Source: Flammeovirgaceae bacterium
GTDB taxonomy: Bacteria > Bacteroidota > Bacteroidia > Cytophagales > Cyclobacteriaceae
Reading direction: 5' to 3'
DNA length: 15,183 nt
NCBI GenBank assembly: GCA_022616575.1
Contig: JAKEEN010000034.1
Location: 1 to 15,183, forward strand
Shown here: one piece after another, positions 1,159-5,942 of the stretch
Position numbering within the stretch: position 1 is the first letter of the stretch
How the letters are laid out: every line of letters starts with the position of its first letter
Translations under genes and position numbers: made by a program
The notes under the pieces: model-generated
The model's database searches: none
What the model saw: the letters and a program-made list of their open reading frames with translations, nothing else
What the model was told of the DNA's origin: nothing

Positions 1159-1927
1159 AAAAATCTTTTATACAGATTCAGGAAAAGGCGGAGTATTAGT
1201 TCTTCTTCACGGCTTCTGTGAGACCCATCAGGTTTGGGAAGATTCTATCAAAGAATACTCAAAACACTTCAGCGTTCTTGCCTTTGATCTACCTGGGGTT
1301 GGAAAAAGTGCAGGGTTGAAGGAGGGTTTCAAGATCAGTGATGTTGCCTCATCTATACTCAAGGTTCTAGCTGCGTTAAAAATCAAAAAGGTTGTGATGG
1401 CCGGACATTCGCTGGGAGGTTATGTAACATTAGCTGCGGTGGAAAAGCAACCCGAACTATTTGCCGGCTTCGCACTCTTTCATTCTACATCATTGGCTGA
1501 TTCATCAGAGAAAAAAGAATCGCGAAACAAGGTGATTGAATTTGTAGAAACACATGGGGCCGAGGCTTTCATCCGTCCATTTATACCACCCTTATTCTAC
1601 AACAAACAGCACCCTGCTATTGAGCGGTTAACAAAAATTGCGTTAGATGGCACACCCAGGCAGACGCTTATCGGCTATACTAGGGCTATGCGCGACAGGC
1701 CGGAATGGTCTAATGTCATCTCTTTATTTAACAAACCTATATTGTTCATTGCCGGACAAAGGGATACCATTATTCCTGTTGAAAGCATTCACAATCAGGC
1801 TAAAACAGCTGAAAAAGGAGAAGTAAGAACATTGCCCGAAGTAGTTCACATGGGCATGTTTGAGGCTCCACAACTTACCACTCAACTCATTATCAATTTT
1901 ACGCACCGATGCTACTCATCGCTTTAA
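1151..1927 (+). CDS. alpha/beta-fold hydrolase, MhpC-like
   Basis: A single-domain cytoplasmic alpha/beta hydrolase of 258 residues, a normal length for the family. The oxyanion-side motif HGF is at residues 20-22, the nucleophile elbow GHSLGG puts the catalytic Ser at 87, the acid is Asp205 in GQRD, and His233 (VVHMG) completes the triad. There is no signal peptide. I chose the ATG at 1151, which overlaps the dxs stop by 8 nt; an in-frame TTG at 1133 would add six residues encoded inside dxs and is less likely. The overlap implies co-transcription with dxs, but the substrate cannot be read from the sequence. Esterase, lactonase or C-C hydrolase activity are all possible; a direct isoprenoid role is not shown. 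Confidence 0.9.
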
Positions 1928-1948
1928 AAATTTAGAAAGCCCATTTTT

Positions 1949-1980
1949 TTGACTTTTTTGCCAAAAGTATGTTAAATTGG
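1949..1980 (+). promoter_or_regulatory. putative Bacteroidota-type promoter for the zinc-ribbon membrane protein gene
   Basis: TTGAC at 1949-1953 lies 21 nt before TAAATTGG at 1973-1980, which is one mismatch from the TAnnTTTG -7 consensus of Bacteroidota. A start near 1987 would give a leader of about 30 nt to the ATG at 2016. The site is AT-rich, so a chance match is possible. Confidence 0.3.
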
Positions 1981-2015
1981 TGTTTTAAAGCGATCACCCT
2001 AAACAAACCCATAAC

Positions 2016-3140: not shown

Positions 3141-4001
3141 TCACACAAGCTTTTCCCTGAAGAATTTCATCGTGCGGCTCCATGCTAATTTAGCTGCCTC
3201 TTCATTGTAGCGAGTGGGTGCTGTATCATTATGAAAAGCATGCTGCGCGCCCTCATAAATGAATAGTTCGTATTGAATATTATTTTTCTTCAATGCTTCT
3301 TCATAAGCCTCAATACCGGCATTCACACGCTCATCAACGCCCGCATAATGGAGTTGTAAGGCTGCCTTAATCCTGGGTACTTCGGCCGCATCGGGTTGGC
3401 GACCGTAGAAAGGGGCCGCTGCCAGAAGTTCTGGCACATTTACCGCTAGATTATTTGCCATAGCCCCTCCCCAGCAAAAGCCTACGCAGCCAAATTTTCC
3501 ATTACAATCCTTGCGGTCTTTCAGGTGTTTAAAGGCAAGTGCAAAATTGCTTATGGTCTTCTTGGCATCAAGCTGTTGAAACATTCCGCGGGCTGCATCA
3601 CCATCGGCTGGCGTTCCGCCAAGGGGTGAAAGGGCGTCTGGGGCTATAGCCAAAAAACCTTCTAAGGCTGCCCTGCGCGTTACATCTTCTATGTGCGGAT
3701 TTAATCCCCTATTCTCGTGAACTACCATTACGGCAGCATACTTTCCTTCTTCCTTAGGCCGGGCCAGGTAGGCTTTCATTTGCACCCCTTCCTCGCCAGT
3801 GTAGGTTATATACTCTGTATGAAGCCGGTTATCCTGATCGGGTACTGTAGCAGCCTTTGCGTAGTTTACCTCCAATAATGGAAGTACCGCCATCGCTGTT
3901 GCGGTACTGCCAGTAAGCTTAATGAGTCGTTTGATGAATCCTTCACGTGTTAAAGGTTTGTGCGTGTATTCATCAAAAAGATTGATGATTTTCTGATCCA
4001 T
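3141..4001 (-). CDS. dienelactone hydrolase family protein with N-terminal export or anchor segment
   Basis: Dienelactone hydrolase-type alpha/beta enzymes use a Cys-His-Asp triad. Here the nucleophile motif GFCWGG gives Cys176, GVDERV gives Asp223 and AQHAF gives His254; VVHENRG (93-99) carries the Glu that in classical DLH interacts with the Cys. The 286-residue length exceeds the roughly 230 of cytoplasmic DLH because of an N-terminal region: residues 1-20 are polar (EYTHKPLTRE), then IKRLIKLTGSTATAMAVLPLLE resembles a Tat-like or anchor segment but lacks the twin arginine. The protein may therefore be exported or membrane-attached. The natural substrate is unknown; many homologues are simply carboxylesterases. 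The ATG at 3999-4001 is used. A tRNA-type terminator lies about 70 nt upstream of it, so this gene starts its own transcript. Confidence 0.92.
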   Translation of the reverse strand: MDQKIINLFDEYTHKPLTREGFIKRLIKLTGSTATAMAVLPLLEVNYAKAATVPDQDNRLHTEYITYTGEEGVQMKAYLARPKEEGKYAAVMVVHENRGLNPHIEDVTRRAALEGFLAIAPDALSPLGGTPADGDAARGMFQQLDAKKTISNFALAFKHLKDRKDCNGKFGCVGFCWGGAMANNLAVNVPELLAAAPFYGRQPDAAEVPRIKAALQLHYAGVDERVNAGIEAYEEALKKNNIQYELFIYEGAQHAFHNDTAPTRYNEEAAKLAWSRTMKFFREKLV

Positions 4002-4071: not shown

Positions 4072-4099
4072 AAAAAAGTCCTGAAGGAATCAGGACTTT
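4072..4099 (-). terminator. terminator behind the broken 3' tRNA-His copy
   Basis: A 10-bp perfect stem (AAAGTCCTGA at 4075-4084 paired with TCAGGACTTT at 4090-4099) with a 5-nt loop is followed, in the minus direction, by a T run ending at 4072. It sits about 10 nt beyond the 3' end of the tRNA remnant, the normal position for a tRNA terminator, and was probably the terminator of the original tRNA-His gene. Confidence 0.85.
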
Positions 4100-4110
4100 A
4101 AATTTTGAAG

Positions 4111-4199
4111 GGTGAAAGATGGGGTTCGAATGCTGACGCGAAGGTCAGCATCCTGACAATTGCTCCAGTAGGAGCAATTCGTCAGGACCCACGACCCCC
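4111..4199 (-). pseudogene. 3' fragment of a tRNA-His gene, interrupted in the T-arm
   Basis: Outside a 57-bp insertion, 4111-4130 and 4188-4199 match the 3' part of the intact tRNA-His (4408-4439) base for base: discriminator C, the 3' acceptor strand, the T-loop TTCGAAC, the T-stem and the G-rich variable region. The match starts, on the minus strand, within the 3' side of the anticodon stem and runs to the tRNA end. The insertion falls between the 5' strand of the T-stem and the T-loop. With no anticodon, D-arm or 5' acceptor strand it cannot make a tRNA. Its first base is the last base of the GIY-YIG stop codon. Confidence 0.9.
4131..4187. repeat. 57-bp double-hairpin (REP/MITE-like) insertion in the tRNA remnant
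   Basis: Two adjacent inverted repeats occupy the whole interval. The first is TGCTGAC, a 6-nt loop GCGAAG, then GTCAGCA (4131-4150). The second is TCCTGAC AATTGCTCC, loop AGTA, GGAGCAATT C GTCAGGA (4151-4187), with a single bulged C. The outer arms of the two hairpins differ at one position (TGCTGAC, TCCTGAC), so the element looks internally duplicated. Removing it restores the tRNA 3' sequence exactly, which defines both ends. I see no target-site duplication. It is too small to code for anything, so it would need mobilisation in trans. Confidence 0.85.
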
Positions 4200-4373
4200 T
4201 ATTTGTATTTTTTTATGAACTCGATCAATCTGTCTCTGGATAGATTTTTTATTTTACTCTCAAGAATAATAGCGGCCCTGGGGGGCTTAGAGGTACTCCA
4301 CCAGATCAGAGGTTTGACCTTTATAGAATTTGCCTGTTGGGTATGAATAGAGAATGTAAACTGTGAAGGTCAT
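4199..4373 (-). pseudogene. degraded GIY-YIG endonuclease gene with internal out-of-frame deletion
   Basis: From the ATG at 4373 the minus strand reads the start of a GIY-YIG nuclease: TVYILYSYPTGKFYKGQTSDL, with the VYI and YKG versions of the two signature triads, then stops at 4287-4289 after 28 residues. In another frame, from about 4315 to the TAG at 4199-4201, it reads a matching C-terminus: PLIWWSTSKPPRAA, then IILESKIKNLSRDR, then LIEFIKKYK. This includes the expected metal-binding Glu (IILE) and the basic tail. The middle, with the catalytic Arg and the HN..G..T region, about 25 residues, is missing, and the join near 4306-4315 shifts frame. Intact family members of this kind are about 80-90 residues. 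The protein cannot be functional. The identification rests on both halves agreeing with one family in the right order. Confidence 0.8.
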
Positions 4374-4375
4374 AA

Positions 4376-4402
4376 AAAAAGCCCTTAAAACTAGGGCTTT
4401 TT
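4376..4402 (-). terminator. terminator of the intact tRNA-His
   Basis: AAAAAGCCCT (4376-4385) pairs with AGGGCTTTTT (4393-4402) around a 7-nt loop, followed in the minus direction by a T tract. It begins six bases after the tRNA 3' end. The nuclease relic's ATG is only 2 nt beyond the tract, so an intact nuclease gene would have needed readthrough or its own promoter. Confidence 0.88.
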
Positions 4403-4407
4403 ATGAG

Positions 4408-4482
4408 GGTGAAAGATGGGGTTCGAACCCACGACCCCCAGAACCACAATCTGGTGCTCTAACCAACTGAGCTACATTCACC
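4408..4482 (-). tRNA. tRNA-His (anticodon GTG)
   Basis: The minus strand folds as a full cloverleaf: acceptor GTGAATG/CTTTCAC, D-arm GCTC...GAGC, anticodon arm CCAGA-TTGTGGT-TCTGG with anticodon GTG, and T-arm GTGGG-TTCGAAC-CCCAT. The extra G at -1 (position 4482) opposite discriminator C73 (4408) is the histidine identity element recognised by HisRS. CCA is not encoded and must be added after transcription. The acceptor stem has a T6:T67 mismatch, and the T-stem closes with a G-T wobble. A terminator follows at once. Flanking tRNA-like pieces are separate features. Confidence 0.96.
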
Positions 4483-4489
4483 ATTTTTT

Positions 4490-4530
4490 GCTCTAACCTC
4501 CCGATAGCTATCGGGATGAGCTACATCCCC
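4490..4530 (-). pseudogene. 5' tRNA fragment interrupted in the D-loop
   Basis: On the minus strand this reads GGGGATGTAGCTCA, an 18-bp palindrome, then GGTTAGAGC. The intact tRNA-His next door reads GGTGAATGTAGCTCA GTT GGTTAGAGC, so the piece is a 5' acceptor strand plus D-arm in which the palindrome stands in place of GTT. It ends at the base of the D-stem and is followed by an A run and the intact tRNA. Because D-arms are alike among tRNAs, the source could be tRNA-His with a drifted acceptor or another tRNA such as tRNA-Ala (GGGGATG acceptor). Confidence 0.62.
4499..4516. repeat. 18-bp perfect palindrome TCCCGATAGCTATCGGGA
   Basis: This is self-complementary over all 18 bases with no loop. 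It sits in the D-loop of the 5' tRNA fragment. From memory, near-identical CCGATAGCTATCGG palindromes are dispersed in many Bacteroidota intergenic regions; that recall was not checked. Confidence 0.85.
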
Positions 4531-4604: not shown

Positions 4605-5942
4605 TTAATCTCTCGCAAAAAGAATCCGCTGACCCTTAATTGATTCATCAAACTTCCCATTTTCATAGGCCAAATGACCTGAAACCAGTGTTTGAGTTAC
4701 TTTCGATTTAAAAGTTTGGCCTTCAAAAGGTGACCATCTGCATTTAGCAAGGATGTTGGCTTTCTCAACTTTCCAGGGGTCATTTAGATTGACAGCCACC
4801 ATATCAGCCTTATATCCTTCCCGGATAAACCCACGCTCTTTGATTTGAAAAAGAATGCCGGGATTATGAGCCATCTTCTCTACAACTCGCTCCAGTGAAA
4901 TTTTCCCTTGATGGTAAAACTCAAGCATAGCTGCCAAAGAATGTTGAATGAGCGGTCCACCGGAAGGTGCTTTGAAATATGTGTTTTGTTTTTCTTCTAA
5001 TGTGTGTGGTGCGTGGTCGGTGGCAATCACATCAATGTGGTCATCCAACATCGCCCTAAAAATAGCTTCCTGATCGGCTTGGGTTTTGATGGCCGGGTTC
5101 CATTTTATTTTTGTTCCCAGGCGTTCGTAATCACTGTCATTAAACCATAAATGATGAATACAGGCTTCAGCTGTAATTCTTTTTTGATTTAAGGGTGTAG
5201 TGTTGTCAAACAGGGAAGTTTCTTTTGCTGTGGATATGTGAAGAATATGAAGCCTCGTGTTAAACTTTTTAGCCAGGCTTATGGCAAAGGAGGATGATTT
5301 ATAACATGCCTCCTCTGACCTGATTTTAGCGTGAAGTTTTACCGGGAAATCTTCCCCATATTTATTTTTAAAGTCTTCAGAATTTTTTCTAATGGTGGGC
5401 TCATCTTCACAGTGTGTGGCAATGAGTGATGGAAACTTTGAGTAGAAGCCTTCCAGTGTTTTAGGGTCATCCACCAATAAATTTCCAGTAGAAGAACCCA
5501 TGAAGATTTTTAGTCCGCATACTCGCTTCACATCGGTCTTTAAAACCTCTTCGAGGTTATCATTCGAAGCGCCCATGAAAAATGAATAGTTCGCCAGCGA
5601 TGTATGAGTTGCGATTTCATACTTCTCTTCAAGTAACTCTTGGGTGAACGTGGGCGGATAGGTGTTGGGCATTTCCATAAAGGTAGTAACACCTCCCGCT
5701 ACCGCAGCTCTCGCTTCTGTATAAATGGTGCCTTTATGCGTTAACCCGGGCTCGCGAAAATGAACCTGATCATCAATAACTCCCGGTAACAAATGATTTC
5801 CCTGCAAATCAATGATCTTGTCAGCCCGAAGATGTGATAGCGCACCTATTTTCTCAATGCGGTCTCCTTTAATCAACACATCAGACTCAATGACCTTGCC
5901 TTCGTTAACTATATTTGCATTGAGTATCAGAATCGAATTCAT
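4605..5942 (-). CDS. pyrC: dihydroorotase (class I type)
   Basis: The enzyme interconverts carbamoyl-aspartate and dihydroorotate, step three of de novo UMP synthesis, in the cytoplasm. The 445-residue length and the whole motif series fit the class I dihydroorotase/allantoinase group: DDQVHFREPGLTHKG at 57-71, the carboxylated Lys145 in GLKIFMG, metal His177 (ATHCED), His235 (LHILHIS) and Asp309 in ATDHAPHT. The usual first HxH motif reads QVH (Gln59, His61), so one canonical metal ligand is replaced; I recall the same DDQVHF form in other Bacteroidota dihydroorotases, so this is probably lineage-normal. The gene is alone on its strand, upstream of the tRNA-His unit and divergent from the helicase. 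Its ATG lies directly after a -7 box, suggesting a very short leader. No other pyr genes are nearby. Confidence 0.94.
   Translation of the reverse strand: MNSILILNANIVNEGKVIESDVLIKGDRIEKIGALSHLRADKIIDLQGNHLLPGVIDDQVHFREPGLTHKGTIYTEARAAVAGGVTTFMEMPNTYPPTFTQELLEEKYEIATHTSLANYSFFMGASNDNLEEVLKTDVKRVCGLKIFMGSSTGNLLVDDPKTLEGFYSKFPSLIATHCEDEPTIRKNSEDFKNKYGEDFPVKLHAKIRSEEACYKSSSFAISLAKKFNTRLHILHISTAKETSLFDNTTPLNQKRITAEACIHHLWFNDSDYERLGTKIKWNPAIKTQADQEAIFRAMLDDHIDVIATDHAPHTLEEKQNTYFKAPSGGPLIQHSLAAMLEFYHQGKISLERVVEKMAHNPGILFQIKERGFIREGYKADMVAVNLNDPWKVEKANILAKCRWSPFEGQTFKSKVTQTLVSGHLAYENGKFDESIKGQRILFARD
5910..5917 (+). promoter_or_regulatory. putative -7 box for the DEAD-box helicase, inside pyrC
   Basis: TATATTTG fits TAnnTTTG exactly and lies 49 bp before the helicase ATG, within the first codons of the divergent pyrC. 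The nearest upstream TTG (5896-5898) is spaced too closely to be a good -33 element, so the call rests on the -7 box. Confidence 0.35.

Follow-up and report, generated by a model that had tools for sequence, protein, structure and literature searches.

A tRNA-His locus of a Flammeovirgaceae bacterium carries the fossil of a widespread GIY-YIG unit that leaves the tRNA intact

We have analysed a stretch of 15,183 nucleotides from contig JAKEEN010000034.1 of a Flammeovirgaceae bacterium (the window, by which we mean this whole stretch), where an intact tRNA-His gene on the minus strand is accompanied by two tRNA pieces and by the remains of a small GIY-YIG nuclease gene. Our finding is that the window copy is the fossil of a widespread unit, which leaves the tRNA intact and lies beside many tRNA genes in Bacteroidota and their relatives. 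The unit consists of a GIY-YIG open reading frame (ORF) and a partial copy of the adjacent tRNA, one arm of which is interrupted or replaced by a hairpin. Judged by its sequence, the locus is probably a decayed copy of a minimal mobile unit that resides at tRNA genes and resembles homing endonucleases, its nuclease presumably acting on DNA. A description of such a unit was not found in the open PubMed Central (PMC) literature, a scope outside which subscription papers mostly fall.

Read along the minus strand, the locus runs from the 5' tRNA piece through the intact tRNA-His, a hairpin, the GIY-YIG relic and the 3' tRNA-His piece to a second hairpin (Table 1). An earlier note on this DNA had described the order from the 5' to the 3' piece and we find it as described, including the start of the 3' piece on the nuclease stop codon, more precisely on its last base (4199). 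What had been overlooked are the hairpins that break both pieces, the 5' one in its D-loop by the palindrome TCCCGATAGCTATCGGGA and the 3' one in its T-arm. The 3' piece (4199-4110) is 100% identical to the intact tRNA-His over 22 and 13 nucleotides (nt), and the repeat of the 3' tRNA end is spaced 297 bp. The relic runs from its ATG at 4373 to its TAG at 4199. Both ends of a small GIY-YIG protein are preserved in it, MTFTVYILYS...KFYKGQTSDL at the start and ESKIKNLSRDRLIEFIKKYK at the end, and since the middle of the nuclease gene is deleted we regard the window copy as a fossil. Its segment MTFTVYILYSYPTGKFYKGQTSDLVEYL is identical to the protein P0043 at 13 of 26 positions (E 1e-7 for that single comparison), and its C-terminus (...AAIILESKIKNLSRDRLIEFIKKYK) is similar to the nuclease at the tRNA-His of another genome, G035 (locus L143). 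The window and L143 align from the tRNA, via the nuclease ends, to the second hairpin of the 3' piece (TGCTGACC..GCGTCAGCA), a similar one being found at the same place in L143. A Pfam search with the two relic parts alone gave no match and the window relic is not among the profile hits of our nuclease family search; its GIY-YIG identity is assigned because of the P0043 match, the C-terminal likeness to the L143 nuclease and its position. The tRNA was the only match in an Rfam scan of the window, which gave no intron match, and we therefore reject an intron in the window tRNA.

In the rest of this genome (1.87 Mb, 53% complete), GIY-YIG genes or relics adjoin a tRNA-Asn and two tRNA-Met genes in addition to the tRNA-His. 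On one contig (C244), tRNA-Asn is followed by a terminator, an open GIY-YIG gene and then the 3' part of tRNA-Asn with the hairpin TCCCGATAAATCGGGA; on another (C133), tRNA-Met is followed by a GIY-YIG gene, with a frame that by eye is broken, and a tRNA-Met 3' piece with the hairpin TCCGCCTAAGGCGGA; on a third (C26), a GIY-YIG relic comes after tRNA-Met. Because these tRNA-Asn and tRNA-Met loci share its order, the window layout goes beyond chance. No tRNA was seen in the scanned flanks of two longer GIY-YIG proteins (C282, C263) or of the gene on C173, the last (L006, about 1300-2000, minus strand) being a GIY-YIG gene of another type that lies without a tRNA between TTCGACTCCGCTCAGG..GTGAC repeats in both orientations.

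To go beyond one genome, we searched named genomes with a profile (A1) made from 21 homologues, which confirmed 249 loci. The best 80 of these, which were kept, are mostly from Bacteroidota, with others from Ignavibacteria-type, Calditrichaceae and Neomarinimicrobiota metagenome-assembled genomes. ARAGORN placed a same-strand tRNA ending less than 400 bp upstream in 50 of the 80 loci (49 after correction, since the call at L091 is a hairpin copy), and in 44 of the 50 the downstream flank matches that same tRNA better than all of 100 shuffles. Altogether 156 distinct nuclease hits were compared, which come from this genome, the named genomes, 30 loci of the bacterial family and genome G087. Our script found a tRNA just upstream in 76, just downstream in 9, only a tRNA piece in 59 and neither in 12; two of the 85 tRNA calls are misread hairpin copies, which corrects the classes to 83, 61 and 12. 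Hence 83 of the 156 nucleases have an intact tRNA on their own strand no more than about 200 bp away (13 tRNA types) and 61 lie beside a tRNA piece, which usually copies the same tRNA and often bears a hairpin, commonly TCCCGA..TCGGGA. At a cut-off score of 18 for calling a fragment, tRNA-piece matches occur in 120 of 156 downstream flanks, compared to 4 of 148 reversed flanks, 14 of 156 reverse complements and 4 of 156 far windows. The enrichment of GIY-YIG genes beside partial copies of the same tRNA, which the earlier note had anticipated, is thus strong, and the shuffle test and flank nulls exclude chance proximity of nuclease and tRNA. Five of the 12 tRNA-free hits are weaker hits of G087 (L166-L170), four of which (L167-L170) form one clade. 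Nuclease relatives at E up to 1e-6 were present in at least 61 of 78 sampled genomes of the bacterial family, a count for which tRNA adjacency was not checked in each. Some homologues end in PDC or SDC where, by our reading, the frame would enter the anticodon arm of tRNA-Asn, and starts such as GPWVRVPAGS read to us like a translated T-arm.

Two side observations concern the tRNA calls themselves. A hairpin copy of tRNA-Asn at L134 (G087; 1776-1858, nuclease strand) was called tRNA-Gly(ccc) by ARAGORN, and those at L091 and L101 were likewise read as tRNAs. At four Marinifilaceae loci (L057, L090, L093, L112) the unit comes after 3-5 tandem tRNA-Asn genes at about 120 bp spacing, as if the tRNA had been amplified.

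The common layout of the unit is intact tRNA, terminator, nuclease, hairpin-bearing 3' tRNA piece and terminator. A minority of loci (L080, L104, L107, L108, L114, L119) have a mirror layout with a repeated promoter region, a 5' piece with a D-loop hairpin, the nuclease and then the intact tRNA; 5' pieces similar to the one in the window stand beside other tRNAs in five of them (all except L107). Hairpin copies are also found upstream of the intact tRNA, as in the window, our script flagging 21 of the 76 loci with an upstream tRNA, of which we read about 17 as sound (excluding two neighbouring tRNA-Gly genes, L048 and L067, and the doubtful L116 and L133; the script missed L137 and L146, seen by eye). 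At L137 the 5' and 3' pieces overlap, each with its anticodon arm replaced, and they must therefore be two partial copies rather than halves of one tRNA, which rules out a single tRNA split in two. The proposal that the two window pieces together make one tRNA minus its anticodon arm fails for this reason and because their hairpins sit at different places. Nuclease hits are in tandem in 36 of 124 loci, mostly 324-458 bp apart (counting starts at least 250 bp apart, and overlapping loci separately). A clear downstream copy of the last 13 bases of the tRNA is present in 60 of the 76 units with an upstream tRNA. In these, the 34 nt after both tRNA ends are at least 80% alike in 39 and at least 95% alike in 23, a likeness reached by 7 of 368 pairs of different loci with the same tRNA type. 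The remaining 21, one of which reads as runs of N, show a larger difference between the two sides, and so does the window itself. A full tRNA carried in by the unit, as previously suggested, is not needed for the 39 units whose terminators are alike on both sides, and the 21 that differ are the evidence that leaves room for a carried 3' half.

As for the hairpin, palindromes of the form TCCCGA-N(2-12)-TCGGGA number 128 in 546 kb of nuclease loci and 114 of them have tRNA-like flanks (random null, 23 of 300). None occurs in 123 kb of control loci from relatives, where a variant core in L030 (TCCCGG) escapes the pattern; one is found in 81 kb of Flavobacterium loci without the unit, and the window's own genome has seven, two of which are in tRNA pieces at nuclease loci. 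Their scarcity in this genome and in the control loci led us to reject the idea that they are ordinary, evenly scattered repeats. Of 66 distinct inner parts, 54 have complementary bases at the seventh pair, directly beside the six-base core, where 25.4 would be expected; this excess indicates that pairing is kept while the sequence changes. Junctions between hairpin and tRNA are exact. The anticodon arm is replaced (26-28/44-46) in Lys, Arg, Pro, Met, Leu, Ala and Val units, a class in which the stem is swapped and the loop often partly kept (18 rows inspected); the hairpin takes the variable loop (43/51) in most of the Asn units placed, the T-loop (56/62) in Phe and the D-loop (12-15/17-19) in the mirror layout. 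Break points are not, then, confined to the anticodon arm, where the earlier note had placed the insertion, and the affected region follows the nuclease clade (see below). Other hairpin cores occur as well (TCCTGAC, TCCGCC, TGCTGAC).

Several hairpins of the same genome lie in other settings. The sequence TCCCGATAGCTATCGGGA recurs at L128 (C249:742-759) outside any tRNA, in the loop of an apparent transcription terminator hairpin; at L125 and L129 (C88, C299) a TCCCGA palindrome sits in a common context, GATTTTATCCCGAT..ATCGGGAATCCCTGGCC, that makes another small repeat family. At L003 (C270, 30-120) a CCTGAC/TGCTGAC double hairpin like the one in the window's 3' piece stands immediately before the start codon of a GIY-YIG gene, and several of the nine places of the TGCTGAC hairpin are within longer dispersed repeats near contig ends.

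The nuclease itself belongs to a family of small proteins (relatives of 77-109 aa), represented by P0001 with a match to the GIY-YIG domain PF01541 (E 1.5e-10). Y6, Y17, R27 and E65, which we take to be catalytic positions, are invariant among the 21 homologues of the A1 alignment. The nearest solved chains by sequence are the UPF0213 proteins 1zg2 and 1ywl; no work on UPF0213/YhbQ was found in the open PMC literature, in which a search on tiny mobile repeats met with off-topic papers. With a median ratio of nonsynonymous to synonymous change (dN/dS) of 0.16 over 27 non-independent pairs, the proteins are kept functional by purifying selection. On a tree of 103 nucleases (one per locus, without stops, at least 60 aa), the clades tend to keep to one tRNA: we count 32 changes of tRNA type among the 96 rows that carry such a label, against a shuffle minimum of 58. 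The arm class, assigned by script to 55 of the 103 rows after those without a clear flank match were dropped, changes 16 times (minimum of 300 shuffles, 27). The anticodon arm is the site in 13 of 16 classified rows of one large clade, which spans eight tRNA types, and in 0 of 39 in the rest of the tree (Fisher 3.9e-10, a description more than a probability as the rows are related). To our minds, the hairpin may mark the place where the nuclease acts, or it may be inherited together with the nuclease. A phage or plasmid vehicle was considered and set aside, given that tblastn of one protein, P0021, found nothing in the phage and plasmid collections.

Filled and empty alleles can be compared at a tRNA-Leu site of Flavobacterium, where 142 genomes gave a match and 30 loci were examined. 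The filled allele of L055 (F. aquaticum) has an empty counterpart in L201, their matched flanks being 93% and 96% identical. Compared to L201, the filled allele has about 326 bp extra, made up of the GIY-YIG ORF and the tRNA piece with no integrase, and a 48-bp direct repeat that comprises the tRNA end and terminator and is identical in both L055 copies and in the empty allele. In other words, the 3' tRNA end and terminator have been duplicated and the tRNA has been left whole. Because the unit duplicates these resident parts, no imported tRNA is needed at this site; of the earlier proposal, that a unit inserted at the tRNA brings a tRNA to the rescue, the GIY-YIG unit and the surviving tRNA stand and the need for import at L055 falls. 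Some filled and empty genomes share an identical intact tRNA-Leu (L055 and L203; L053 and L201/L202), and that of L055 differs from L201 by one base. Among the matches listed, the flanking gene could be located in 21 flavobacteria, 6 of which are filled, with 6 state changes on a flanking-gene tree (22 of 39 loci, those where the gene was found); distribution on this tree is patchy, a pattern that losses could also give. The synonymous difference of the nuclease is smaller than that of this one flanking gene in 8 of 10 filled pairs. At a tRNA-Val site (L149), comparison within the genus and with near genera revealed no shared downstream gene, and the genus of G087 is represented by one genome.

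For the tRNA-His site of the window, the upstream amidohydrolase-family gene was sought in 59 genomes and, among the matches listed, a tRNA-His is near that gene in 23 of 29 loci of relatives scanned for tRNAs. Reading these 23 sites by eye (from 100 bp upstream to at most 520 bp downstream), we found four that are occupied or scarred. L016 has a GIY-YIG gene with a frameshift at tRNA-His; L030 has a 5' piece upstream of tRNA-His with a D-loop hairpin that by eye closely resembles the window's; and in L024 and L032 the tRNA-His 3' end, its T-loop altered, is repeated in tandem together with the terminator, the inspected stretch containing no nuclease gene. Uninterrupted single tRNA-His sites, with which the earlier note had proposed to align the locus, do exist: in L015 and L017 a lone tRNA-His is directly followed by a gene that, by eye, starts like the dienelactone-hydrolase-family gene of the window. 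Subtracting 297 bp from the distance between tRNA and this gene in the window leaves about 108 bp, near the spacing of about 115-145 bp in L015 and L017.

Table 1. Features of the tRNA-His locus and its neighbours in the window
Feature	Position	Strand	Remarks
5' tRNA piece	4490..4530	minus	acceptor 5' strand and D-arm, hairpin in D-loop
Palindrome TCCCGATAGCTATCGGGA	4499..4516	no strand	in D-loop of 5' piece; 1 of 7 own-genome TCCCGAN{2,12}TCGGGA places
Intact tRNA-His, anticodon gtg	4407..4481	minus	ARAGORN; Rfam 64.5 bits
Terminator-like hairpin and T-run, between tRNA and nuclease relic	about 4374..4403	minus	read by eye
GIY-YIG relic, N-terminal part MTFTVYILYSYPTGKFYKGQTSDLVEYL*	4287..4373	minus	
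GIY-YIG relic, C-terminal part ...AAIILESKIKNLSRDRLIEFIKKYK*	4199..4286	minus	aligned to L143
3' tRNA-His piece, first part, tRNA positions 43-55	4187..4199	minus	overlaps relic stop codon by one base
Double hairpin, 56 nt (CCTGAC..GTCAGG and TGCTGACC..GCGTCAGCA)	4131..4186	no strand	in T-arm of 3' piece
3' tRNA-His piece, second part, tRNA positions 55-75	4110..4130	minus	
Second terminator-like hairpin, after 3' piece	4074..4103	minus	read by eye
Amidohydrolase-family gene (presumably dihydroorotase-like)	4605..5942	minus	synteny marker upstream of tRNA-His
Dienelactone-hydrolase-family gene	3141..4001	minus	synteny marker downstream

How might such a unit move? We envisage that the nuclease would break or nick DNA, either in the tRNA gene at the cognate arm or at the hairpin of the unit's partial copy. 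Recombination between the tRNA-derived repeats could then bring the unit to the corresponding tRNA gene in another genome, and the same process might amplify it in tandem or delete it, the essential tRNA staying intact throughout. Escape of the intact tRNA from the nuclease may be explained if the enzyme acts on the hairpin only, if it is almost silent (by eye the start codon often directly follows the terminator) or if cutting is tolerated and repaired, which would also produce arrays. More generally, the sequence comparisons suggest a class of minimal mobile elements in Bacteroidota and related phyla, made of a GIY-YIG gene and a hairpin-altered tRNA copy, in which each nuclease lineage would be dedicated to one tRNA gene and one arm and would spread by cutting there, the host being kept alive as target duplication leaves or rebuilds an intact tRNA; taken as one statement, we consider this evenly poised between right and wrong.

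Several observations weigh against a mobile, homing-like unit. The nuclease set was recruited with a tRNA-adjacent query, so that its members cannot be counted as independent; the 92-column nuclease tree has 39 of its 100 inner branches drawn open, and horizontal transfer rests on one flanking gene. A recognisable 3'-end copy is absent from 16 of the 76 units with an upstream tRNA and, by eye, from L016, and the 3' piece of the window bears a different palindrome family, with nine places in this genome. Pieces free of a nuclease (the 3' tandems of L024 and L032, the 5' piece of L030) fit hairpin copies that may arise without it. Contrary to what classical homing would lead one to expect, the resident tRNA-Leu does not appear, from its sequence, to be a changed, resistant variant; since filled and empty genomes can share an identical gene and the alteration is confined to the partial copy, we do not file the unit as a classical homing member.

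Among other explanations, the one put forward in the earlier note has a whole tRNA, or its 3' half, carried in together with the nuclease, inserting into the resident tRNA and replacing the function thus destroyed. The 21 of 60 units that are less than 80% alike after their tRNA ends, several of them with plausible terminators on both sides, would fit this, as would the hairpin copies upstream of intact tRNAs and the far (not near) terminator of L149, which by eye resembles that of a unit-free tRNA-Val in the same genus, a weak likeness since the downstream genes differ. We nonetheless find it decidedly unlikely in the face of the 39 units with terminators alike on both sides, of L055, where both equal that of the empty relative, of the overlapping pieces at L137 and of intact tRNAs that are the same in some filled and empty genomes. 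Another possibility is that the sole target of the nuclease is the hairpin in its own unit, and that a small circle of nuclease and hairpin copy integrates by a Campbell-type single crossover for which the tRNA merely provides homology. Such a crossover would give the order and direct repeats observed (intact tRNA, nuclease, hairpin copy) and could yield the tandem arrays, and it suits the small size of the protein, the unaltered tRNA and the recurrence of one hairpin core in different clades and phyla. That core is not universal, however (TCCGCC, TCCTGAC and TGCTGAC forms exist), arm specificity would be explained by inheritance only and the circle is itself hypothetical, so we regard this as a somewhat unlikely account.

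A role for the host has also to be weighed, in which the nuclease and its repeats were domesticated to amplify tRNA genes, for instance against tRNA-cutting toxins or defences, as the accessible text of PMC13096335 describes for SegB in phage. Tandem tRNA-Asn genes beside the Marinifilaceae units and an Asp/Gly array at L148 point this way; a single tRNA at most named-genome loci with an upstream tRNA, the patchy presence of the unit and the fact that the window copy and some others are relics make it very improbable. Finally, the locus might be a decayed tRNA array near which an unrelated nuclease gene landed by chance. The window copy is decayed and nuclease-free tRNA pieces do exist, but the recurrence statistics, flank nulls and hairpin counts contradict such a history, which we consider negligible; decay of an array, or a lack of enrichment, is what the earlier note had named as grounds for giving up its idea, and the recurrence speaks against both.

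If the reading of the locus as a decayed copy of a tRNA-resident mobile unit is right, it would define a nuclease-only element of about 330-460 bp at essential RNA genes, with neither intron nor integrase. It would also account for many stray tRNA pieces and GIY-YIG genes in Bacteroidota genomes and link chromosomal elements to the phage SegB story. The filled and empty Flavobacterium alleles offer a ready test bed for target finding by very small nucleases, and hairpin copies may mislead tRNA annotation, as ARAGORN did at three of our loci.

Among known systems, genomic islands, integrative and conjugative elements and prophages that target tRNA genes insert there with the 3' tRNA end as direct repeats and leave the tRNA whole. 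The unit shares the direct repeat of the 3' end and the intact tRNA; unlike these islands, it has no tyrosine or serine integrase, measures about 330 bp at L055, breaks in several arms and has its hairpin within the displaced copy. A link between short palindromes and a nuclease gene is known from repetitive extragenic palindromes and their tyrosine transposases (REP/RAYT) and from very small palindromic mobile repeats. In contrast to the IS200-type REP/RAYT system, the ORF of our unit is GIY-YIG and not an HUH tyrosine transposase, and its palindromes are concentrated in tRNA copies at nuclease loci. Group I introns that lie in the anticodon loop of tRNAs and in some cases bring an endonuclease (PMC3984707) likewise associate an endonuclease gene with a tRNA gene; in the unit it is the partial copy which is interrupted and not the tRNA, and the window lacks an intron match. 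In bacteria of the candidate phyla radiation, GIY-YIG genes lie in rRNA insertion sequences that match neither intron class, according to the accessible portion of PMC11270868; these too are GIY-YIG proteins lodged in a structural RNA gene, albeit rRNA rather than tRNA, and that portion describes no partial gene copies.

By analogy, the closest precedent we can point to is phage SegB. This free-standing GIY-YIG homing endonuclease is encoded among tRNA genes in phages T4 and T6. In T6 its cuts fall within tRNA genes and drive the amplification of the tRNA locus into tandem copies, and its motif RAWTSGAAC, present at 23 of 83 sites, is helpful and not required (PMC13096335). The reverse complement of the motif, GTTCSAWTY, looks T-loop-like to us, and the T-loop is where the tRNA-Phe and tRNA-Leu hairpins of nuclease clade II sit, a link that is our own reading. 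SegB differs from the unit in being phage-borne and 221 aa long, with little similarity to our nuclease family (hhalign probability 1.1) and without a hairpin-marked copy; pieces of four tested tRNAs were not found in or around T4 segB. What the two have in common is position, T4 segB lying 41 bp after tRNA-Ile on the same strand, and some of the features by which a SegB-like homing gene may be recognised, for the unit combines a GIY-YIG domain of conserved core with a place beside its presumed target and with filled and empty alleles.

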